This document shows, in pieces, positions 25,364-28,062 of a DNA stretch of 64,000 nucleotides. Position numbers and translations under genes: made by a program. The stretch spans positions 62,001 to 126,000 of the forward strand of contig NZ_JAGQCS010000007.1 of NCBI RefSeq assembly GCF_024346315.1, read 5' to 3'. The DNA is from Cyanobium sp. ATX 6F1 (GTDB taxonomy: Bacteria; Cyanobacteriota; Cyanobacteriia; PCC-6307; Cyanobiaceae). The notes beneath the pieces were generated by a model that was not told the DNA's origin, made no database searches, and saw only the letters and a program-made list of their open reading frames with translations. Position 1 is the first letter of the stretch, and each line of letters starts with the position of its first letter.

Positions 25364-26515
25364 TCAGGTCCGAATCTGAATGGGCATCACCAGGTAGGTG
25401 AAGCCCCCATCCTCCACCGGCGCCAGCACGGCCGGAGTGGTGGGGGCGTTGCAGCGCAGCTCCACCCGCTCGGCGACCATCGCCTTGAGGCCATCGAGCA
25501 CATAGCGCACGTTGAAGGCGATCTGGATCGGTTCACCGCTGATCGAGGCCGCCAGGGCCTCCGAACCGCTGCCGACGTCCTGGGCATCGGCGCTGATCGC
25601 GAGCTGGCCGTTGGCTGGATCACTGCTGAGCTTGACCACGTTGTTGTGCTGGTCCGCCAGCACCGCCACCCGTTCGAGGGCAGCGATCAGACCGCGGCGG
25701 TCCAGCTCCAGCACCCGGTTGAAGCTGTCGGGGATGAGCTGGCGGTAGTTGGGATAGGTGCCGTCGAGGCTGCGGCTGGTGACCACCTGGTCACCCCAGA
25801 GGAACACCACCTGACCTCGGTCGCAGAAGAGGTTGACCGGCTCGGCCGCCGGGCGTGCCGACAGCAGCCGCTCCAGTTCGCGCAGGGAGCGGGCCGGCAC
25901 GGTGACGGCGAAGGGCTCCCCTTCTCCCGGCTCGCTGGCGCCCCCGGGCAGGGCGTTGGCCAGCCGCAGCACGGAGAGCCGGTGGCCATCGGTGGCGGCG
26001 AACTCCAGATCCTGGCCCTCCAGGCTCAGATGCACACCGGTGAGCAGCTGCTTGGCCTCATCACCGCTGCTGGCGAACAGGGTGGCCCGCAGGCCCCTCA
26101 CCAGGGCCTCGGCCTCCAGGCGGATCGGCACGCCGGTCTGGAGCAGGGGCAGATCGGGGAAGTCTTCCGCCGCCAGGCCGCGCAACTGGTAGCTGCCGGA
26201 GAGGCTGGTGAGCTCCACCTGCTCGCTCTCCTCAGGGCTGTGCAGGGTGATCGGGCTCTCACTGGACTGGCGCGAGACGATTTCACCGAACAGGCGCGCC
26301 GGCAGGGTGATCGCACCGCTGGCCTCCACCGATGCCGCCAGGCTGGTCTGGATGCCAAGGCTGAGATCGAAGCCGGTGAGGCTCAAGCGACCGGTGCCCG
26401 CATCGGCCGTCAGCAACACATTGGCCAGCACGGGGTGGTTAGGACGGGCGGTGACAGCCCGGCTCACCAGCTGGAGACTGGCATTCAGTTCGGCCTGGGA
26501 ACAGACCAGCTTCAT
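25364..26515 (-). CDS. dnaN: DNA polymerase III beta subunit (sliding clamp)
   Basis: A 383-residue beta clamp that tethers the replicative polymerase to DNA. It starts MKLVCSQAELNASLQLVSRA at 26515; the in-frame extension further upstream has no clamp character. Family segments include HPVLANVLL, the domain 2 start FLWGDQVVTSRSLDGTYPNYRQLIP and the C-terminal YLVMPIQIR. It borders the only long intergenic region of the window, which contains DnaA-box-like sites, matching the known location of cyanobacterial oriC beside dnaN in Synechococcus elongatus. Confidence 0.97.
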   Translation of the reverse strand: MKLVCSQAELNASLQLVSRAVTARPNHPVLANVLLTADAGTGRLSLTGFDLSLGIQTSLAASVEASGAITLPARLFGEIVSRQSSESPITLHSPEESEQVELTSLSGSYQLRGLAAEDFPDLPLLQTGVPIRLEAEALVRGLRATLFASSGDEAKQLLTGVHLSLEGQDLEFAATDGHRLSVLRLANALPGGASEPGEGEPFAVTVPARSLRELERLLSARPAAEPVNLFCDRGQVVFLWGDQVVTSRSLDGTYPNYRQLIPDSFNRVLELDRRGLIAALERVAVLADQHNNVVKLSSDPANGQLAISADAQDVGSGSEALAASISGEPIQIAFNVRYVLDGLKAMVAERVELRCNAPTTPAVLAPVEDGGFTYLVMPIQIRT

Positions 26516-26657
26516 CGACGCAGACCCGGGCTTGAAACGATGGATGGCCCATCGGGCGACACCAAGCTTCCACAAGGCGGTCGGATCCGCAACGGCCCGA
26601 TCGGGAGTCCGTACCAAGATCGACCTGGAACCGACCGGTTGGGTTCGGCCCGACGGA

Positions 26658-26690
26658 TCAAGAAAGGATTGATTTCTTGAATCAATAAAA
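26658..26690. other. A/T-rich palindromic segment, candidate duplex-unwinding element
   Basis: TCAAGAAA (26658-26665) and TTTCTTGA (26673-26680) are perfect 8-bp inverted repeats. A second palindrome, TTGAT/ATCAA (26669-26673 and 26681-26685), overlaps it, and AATAAAA follows. This is the most A/T-rich run I noticed in the region and lies 18 bp from the first strong DnaA-box-like pair. Confidence 0.45.
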
Positions 26691-26708
26691 CCTCGTAGTC
26701 GTAGGGCC

Positions 26709-26902
26709 TGTGGAAATCGTGGAAAACAGTGCAAAGGGCCTGCAAGAGAATGGATGAGCGCTCAGATCCCTTGGGGAGAGTGAGCGCGAATGAATCGATT
26801 TCGAGCTGTTTTCCACTCTTTCCCCCGACTGGGGAAAAACAATGACCATCCATGACCCGGCTGAGCCCGTCGTTTTCCATGGAACGCCAGCGCTTTTCCT
26901 CA
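26709..26902. promoter_or_regulatory. Cluster of DnaA-box-like 9-mers
   Basis: Compared with TTTTCCACA: ATTTCCACA (26717-26709, minus, 8/9); TTTTCCACG (26726-26718, minus, 8/9), directly adjacent; TTTTCCACT (26809-26817, plus, 8/9); TTTTCCCCA (26838-26830, minus, 8/9); TTTTCCATG (26873-26881, plus, 7/9); TTTTCCTCA (26894-26902, plus, 8/9). Matches were counted by eye. Confidence 0.6.
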
Positions 26903-26958
26903 GCCCCAGGTCGACCTGTTGGGGACCAGTTCCTGAAATGACCCGGCTCTGATCGGGA

Positions 26959-28062
26959 TCAGAAGCCCATCACCTTCGCCACCGTGGCCACGTCGGGGGA
27001 CAGATCGGGGTGGAAGGTGGCGTCATTGTTCTCGATCGCGCAGTTGGGATCTTTCAGGCCGTTTCCGGTGAGCACGCAGACCACCGTGGCTCCGGCGGGC
27101 ACCGCCTCGGCCTGTTGCAGCAGCCCCGCCACCGAGGCGGCGCTGGCAGGTTCACAGAACACCCCCTCCTGGCTTCCCAGCAGCTTGTAGGCGCTCACAA
27201 TCTCGGCGTCGGTGACGGCATGGAAGGCGCCTCCGCTCTCGCTGCGCACCTTGAGGGCCTTTTCACGGTTGGCCGGGTTGCCGATGCGGATCGCCGTGGC
27301 GATGGTGTCCGGCTGCTCAACCGTGTGGCCCAGCACCAGGGGGGCGGAACCACTGGCCTGAAAGCCCATCATCTTGGGCAGCTTGCGGCTCAGGCCCGCC
27401 TGGCGGTATTCCTGGAAGCCCATCCAGTAGGCGCTGATGTTGCCGGCGTTGCCCATGGGGATGCAGAGCCAGTCGGGGGCGTCACCGAGGGCATCCACCA
27501 CCTCGAAAGCGGCCGTCTTCTGGCCCTGCAGGCGGTAGGGATTGAGGGAATTCACCAGGGTGACCGGATAGCGCTCGGCCACCTCGCGCACGATCGTCAG
27601 GGCCTGGTCGAAGTTGCCGCGCACCGCCAGCACCTCGGCGCCGTAGAGCAGGGCCTGGGCGAGTTTGCCCTGGGCCACGTAGCCGTCGGGGATGAGCACG
27701 AAGGCGCGCATGCCGGCCCGGCGGGCATAGGCGGCGGCGGCGGCGGAGGTGTTGCCGGTGCTGGCGCAGATCACTGCGCTCGAGCCCGCCTCCTTGGCCT
27801 TGCTGATCGCCATCGTCATGCCCCGGTCCTTGAAGCTGCCGGTGGGGTTGAGACCGTCGTATTTGAGGAACACCCTCACGCCCCGGCCGATGCGTTCGGC
27901 CACGGCGGGGGCCGGAATCAATGGCGTGCCCCCTTCCCGCAGCGTGATCACCGGGGTGCGCTCCGAGACCGGCAACCAGCGCCGGTAGCCCTCGATCAGC
28001 CCTGGCCAGTCTTGGAAGGCCGGCTTTCTGCCCAGGTTCCGCAGGGAGTCAAGCAGCGGCAC
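26959..28062 (-). CDS. thrC: Threonine synthase
   Basis: A 367-residue PLP enzyme that converts O-phosphohomoserine to threonine. The PLP lysine lies in [12 protein letters not shown], and the phosphate-binding [13 protein letters not shown] and the [12 protein letters not shown] segment are present. The start is a GTG at 28062, about 10 residues before the conserved region. A TAGATT hexamer 23 nt upstream is a candidate -10. Its 3' end faces the origin candidate, so it would be transcribed towards oriC, against the rightward fork. Confidence 0.95.

Follow-up and report, generated by a model that had tools for sequence, protein, structure and literature searches.

A probable DnaA-dependent replication origin beside dnaN in a Cyanobium-like picocyanobacterium, with cytosine in the middle of predicted DnaA-trios

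In cyanobacteria, the position of the chromosomal origin (oriC) beside dnaN, with DnaA boxes of the TTTTCCACA type, is established, and in Synechococcus elongatus this was done by experiment (PMC7198777, PMC4674748). For the basal unwinding system (BUS) of Bacillus subtilis, structural work has revealed that the first and second bases of each DnaA-trio are captured, with the third facing away, and that Asn187 of DnaA contacts the amine of the middle adenine (PMC10721633). At this middle position cytosine is about equal to adenine, and guanine and thymine fail (PMC10721633). B. subtilis trios engineered to carry cytosine supported strand separation, and the cells grew better than those with guanine or thymine (PMC10721633). 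Deviant trios lacking the middle A were suspected earlier (PMC8287927). We found no report of a natural lineage with cytosine-containing trios (C-trios) in the literature searched, which covers subscription journals sparsely and leaves priority uncertain.

The thrC-dnaN region and its DnaA boxes

The window analysed here is a stretch of 64,000 nucleotides, positions 62001-126000 of contig C7 in a 2.96-Mb draft genome of 17 contigs. The nearest named relative of the host is Cyanobium sp. Morenito 9A2, with 92% identity in DnaN. A preliminary description, made from the sequence of the window, had proposed a chromosomal origin at 26516-26958, and these coordinates proved exact. The 443-bp stretch spans the gap from the stop codon of thrC to the start codon of dnaN, both genes being encoded on the minus strand, and we assign it as the putative oriC region on the basis of its coordinates, its boxes and a switch in strand skew. 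On its downstream side lies dnaN, encoding the sliding clamp (25364-26515, start codon at 26515); the conserved neighbour on the other side is thrC, named from sequence as threonine synthase (26959-28062, stop at 26959-26961). The preliminary description had called it the only gene-free stretch above 300 bp; a crude gene caller of low reliability left further gaps of such length in the window. No Rfam element was detected in the window at the gathering threshold, and no sigma-70-like promoter or terminator was found in the thrC-dnaN gap. Just upstream of dnaN, a conserved element on the minus strand, GTTGCGG...TTGTGGAAGC-TTGG (26562-26593), contains the weak box GCTTCCACA. In the alignment of relatives it follows the unwinding segment on the dnaN side, and it possibly has a role in dnaN expression.

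Matches to TTTTCCACA with at most one mismatch occurred eight times in the 64-kb window, and five of the eight lay inside 26516-26958, where only 0.02-0.03 would be expected in a stretch of 443 bp. The cluster of DnaA-box-like sequences reported from first inspection was thus confirmed. When box clusters in the window were ranked, the thrC-dnaN gap was the densest, with a weighted score of 12 against 4 for the runner-up. No exact 9/9 box is present in the region, all of its boxes being imperfect. Two of them abut on the minus strand: box 1 of the pair (TTTTCCACG, 26718-26726) is followed directly by the trio-proximal box 2 (ATTTCCACA, 26709-26717). The preliminary description had pointed out this adjacent pair, and relatives show the same arrangement upstream of their dnaN. 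Farther upstream are the box TTTTCCACT in the opposite orientation on the plus strand (26809-26817), with the box-like CTTTCCCCC after it at 26818-26826; the box TTTTCCCCA on the minus strand (26830-26838), which has C at position 7; a weak box-like site TTTTCCATG on the plus strand (26873-26881); and a distal box TTTTCCTCA, also on the plus strand (26894-26902). In other bacteria, C at position 7 is a mark of low-affinity ATP-DnaA boxes (PMC8235120). The form TTTTCCCCA is that of many boxes in the family of the focal genome.

Strand skew and the initiator gene

GC skew on the 158-kb contig C7 was -0.0205 to the left of the site and +0.0236 to the right, and keto skew had its best single step at 89 kb, the site itself lying at 88.7 kb. 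Because the raw cumulative GC skew minimum was 12 kb off the site, the skew of this contig alone constitutes only moderate evidence. No leading-strand bias in gene orientation was seen on contig C7. In the complete relative G010, the cumulative keto minimum lay 0.001 kb (1 bp) away from where the homologous BUS had been placed, with keto skew negative in 10/10 samples to the left and positive in 10/10 samples to the right. In a second complete relative, G069, the minimum lay 0.29 kb from the homologous BUS. Sampled skew in G024, G106 and G124 ran in the same direction with a weak signal.

These data bear on whether the box array could be a site for titrating DnaA or regulating dnaN, the true origin being elsewhere. 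The array does lie upstream of dnaN, and it includes a conserved element resembling a box some 50 bp from that gene. However, the skew switch coincided with the site on the focal contig and lay within 0.3 kb in the two complete relatives, when a skew minimum elsewhere had been named at the outset as the outcome that would speak against an origin. The unwinding elements, trios and an A/T-rich segment, are present as well. We therefore regard a titration or regulatory site as very improbable.

The focal genome carries an intact dnaA gene, and dnaA was found in 166/167 high-quality family genomes. The only one of the 167 without detectable dnaA was G026, a picocyanobacterial genome of 1.9 Mb that is 95% complete. 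Its thrC-dnaN gap (L030) measures only about 150 bp and holds no recognisable BUS, the sole such case among the loci retrieved with their whole upstream region; a search of the rest of this genome with a partial BUS pattern gave no match. As a single genome of 95% completeness, G026 is no more than suggestive of a joint loss of initiator and origin.

It could be supposed that the focal site is a relic, in a chromosome replicated independently of DnaA or from multiple origins as in Synechocystis 6803, and such loss has occurred several times in cyanobacteria (PMC7198777). Against this, the array and the DnaA contact residues are visibly constrained, the skew is regular in the close relatives G010 and G069, and V-shaped skew is found in most species outside clades A and B (PMC7198777), so that a relic is hardly to be expected here. 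The preferred reading, that of a chromosomal replication origin beside dnaN as first proposed, is supported by evidence that is comparative throughout: 26516-26958 is almost certainly the chromosome replication start site of this Cyanobium-like picocyanobacterium. As an origin the thrC-dnaN site is ordinary, an oriC beside dnaN being known cyanobacterial anatomy.

Two side observations on dnaA-like sequences were made. A second, weaker match to the Bac_DnaA domain was located in G000 at contig C5:289512-289820 (L002); it covers about 106 aa, at 28% identity to DnaA. Similar matches are multi-copy in G124, which points to an ATPase of a mobile element (IstB-like) and not to an initiator. In genus g9, the dnaA frames carry one in-frame stop each, TGA in G171 (L271) and TAG in G009, which may reflect sequencing error or decay.

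The unwinding module and the middle base of its trios

The module adjoining the box pair at 26709-26726 is the predicted counterpart of the BUS as described in B. subtilis (PMC6669920, PMC8287927). In the orientation of dnaN it reads TTTTCCACG-ATTTCCACA-GGCC-CTA CGA CTA CGA-GGTTTTATTGATTC, all on the minus strand. The G/C-rich spacer GGCC (26705-26708) separates box 2 from the trios and is 4 nt long in aligned genomes too. The DnaA-trio array CTA CGA CTA CGA (26693-26704), overlooked in the preliminary description, carries C for the middle A in trios 2 and 4 when read on the strand predicted to be bound by DnaA, which is the plus strand of the window, 3'-GAT GCT GAT GCT-5'. Beyond it lies the putative A/T-rich DNA unwinding element (26650-26692), T-rich and then A-rich on the minus strand. 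The A/T-rich segment that had been noted on the dnaN side is real, with 57-58% AT against a background of roughly 35-40% AT. The nested palindrome noted with it does exist, but its strength did not exceed that of dinucleotide shuffles (z of -1.0 in the focal sequence; mean z of -0.07 over 141 genomes) and it was not conserved among the 141 genomes; as a conserved origin element it was rejected on both grounds.

An alignment of the region across related genomes, as proposed in the preliminary description, brought out a conserved array. The BUS upstream of dnaN was aligned in 141 genomes, and the conserved module consists of the adjacent box pair, the 4-nt spacer, a trinucleotide repeat that begins with CTA, and T-rich followed by A-rich DNA. 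A pattern with free middle bases at trios 2-4 matched 77/251 family genomes, once in each, and its reversed control gave no match in the same 251 genomes. The focal locus has the co-oriented DnaA box pair beside the trios and the short spacer of 4 nt (GGCC). Its trio middles run A, C, A, C, and the published feature, an unbroken run of three or more middle-A trios, (.A.){3,} (PMC8287927), is not found in it; for this reason the array was filed as a BUS variant. It is a variant lacking one published BUS feature, not a canonical member, and appears to work in a BUS-like way. A re-implementation of the published rule, which asks for such a run no farther than 16 nt from a box, missed the focal array and recovered only 46/141 genomes in register. 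Published BUS rules miss the focal origin because the middle A is absent from trios 2 and 4.

We then examined the middle base in the 141 origins, which were extracted by a dnaN anchor and scored without regard to their middle bases. Read on the trio strand, the middle base was A in 374 cases, C in 179, T in 7 and G in 4. An additional set of 29 sites from named genomes, none identical to sites of the main set, gave A 49, C 64, T 3 and G 0. Trio 1 had A in 138/141 origins; the first base of the trios on this strand was a near-invariant G, and the third base was variable, in parallel with the captured and uncaptured bases of the B. subtilis structure (PMC10721633). Parsimony on a dnaN tree gave about 32 changes from A to C, 18.5 from C to A, 2.6 from A to G and 1.0 from A to T. 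Three kinds of control were used: four-fold sites, positions sharing the C-N-A context, and the A/T-rich segment next to the trios. At control sites the corresponding change made up 15-23% (about 20%), with p about 1e-17 to 1e-22, values that are approximate since parsimony changes were counted as independent events. A similar free-middle pattern in other cyanobacteria showed trios 2 and 3 to be almost all A, and the C-trios thus look derived within the family of the focal genome.

In a rival view, the C substitutions are neutral decay driven by G+C pressure: trios 2-4 would be drifting, and trio 1 and the A/T-rich segment would be the only parts that matter. The near-constant A of trio 1 fits such drift, as does the correlation of C-trio number with third-position GC of dnaN (Spearman 0.67). 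However, drift predicts at least as much G as C on the trio strand, whereas the observed ratio of C to G was 179:4, and the parsimony changes were 32 against 2.6. The control sites, moreover, favoured the opposite G+C-raising change, 199 to 141, and the first bases of the trios have remained near-invariant. These results make neutral decay unlikely. The best reading appears to be that G+C pressure acts on the middle base, and that selection for the amine lets only C pass.

The contact residues of DnaA were placed by alignment to 8btg. E183, N187, I190, I193, R202 and E228 were invariant in 30 sampled DnaAs whatever their trio type, so that no co-variation of trio-contact residues with trio type was seen among these 30 proteins; at the position of N196, the contact for the third base, the compared DnaAs have D or G. 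The A/C pattern might be kept by another ligand, either a protein that binds double-stranded DNA or a second regulator, instead of by nucleobase capture. In favour of this, the commonest deviant array, CTA CGA CTA CGG (21 genomes), alternates A and C. Yet register, spacing and strand agree with the B. subtilis BUS, the rule fits measured chemistry (PMC10721633), and the DnaA contact residues are intact, which leaves another ligand with little probability. Under nucleobase capture, the natural restriction to A and C matches what would be expected from the B. subtilis amine rule (PMC10721633).

A working model can be proposed on this basis. DnaA-ATP would bind the upstream boxes and the adjacent pair at 26709-26726, and the pair would load DnaA onto the trio strand (the plus strand of the window) across GGCC, in the direction of dnaN. 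Each DnaA subunit would capture bases 1 and 2 of one trio, and the captured trios would lead to opening of the A/T-rich segment at 26650-26692, where helicases would be loaded for bidirectional replication. Genomic G+C pressure would have put C in place of the middle A in trios 2 and 4, and C retains the exocyclic amine gripped by a conserved Asn of DnaA (Asn187 in B. subtilis), and the C-trio array would still work because C keeps this contact. We infer that C-trios are functionally equivalent in the focal species, and that DnaA binding and melting take place there too. As a whole, a single DnaA-dependent chromosomal origin whose trios have changed from A to C with the amine kept is very likely the best explanation of the locus.

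Comparison with known origins

As far as the literature searched shows, the trio sequence 3'-GAT GCT GAT GCT-5' is the new part, the origin itself being known anatomy. It is probable, with somewhat less assurance than for the origin as a whole, that deviant trios of the type 3'-GCN-5' occur naturally in picocyanobacterial origins, with A and C, but not G or T, exchanged in evolution at the captured base, that the amine rule is a general code of origin opening, and that the middle of the BUS trio is properly written [A/C]. In the trio pattern, evolution has in effect tested how DnaA recognizes the strand that it opens. The simple [A/C] rule allows the 15% of bacterial origins reported without trios to be scanned again, and C-trio origins provide a ready-made system in which to test the amine rule.

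Like the oriC of Synechococcus elongatus PCC 7942 and other cyanobacteria (PMC4674748, PMC7198777), the focal region is adjacent to dnaN and has TTTTCCACA-like boxes and an A/T-rich segment, with dnaA elsewhere in the genome and a skew switch; unlike them, it has boxes that are all imperfect, C in trios 2 and 4, and thrC as its neighbour. With the BUS of Bacillus subtilis oriC (PMC6669920, PMC10721633, PMC8287927) it shares two co-oriented boxes, a short G/C-rich spacer, and trinucleotide repeats starting with 3'-G that are followed by A/T-rich DNA, and it differs in having natural 3'-GCT-5' trios. In this respect it resembles the engineered cytosine-substituted trios of B. subtilis (PMC10721633), which also have C in the middle position. 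Those, however, are laboratory mutants of trios 1-3, whereas the C-trios of the focal family are natural and fall almost only in trios 2-4, with A kept in trio 1.
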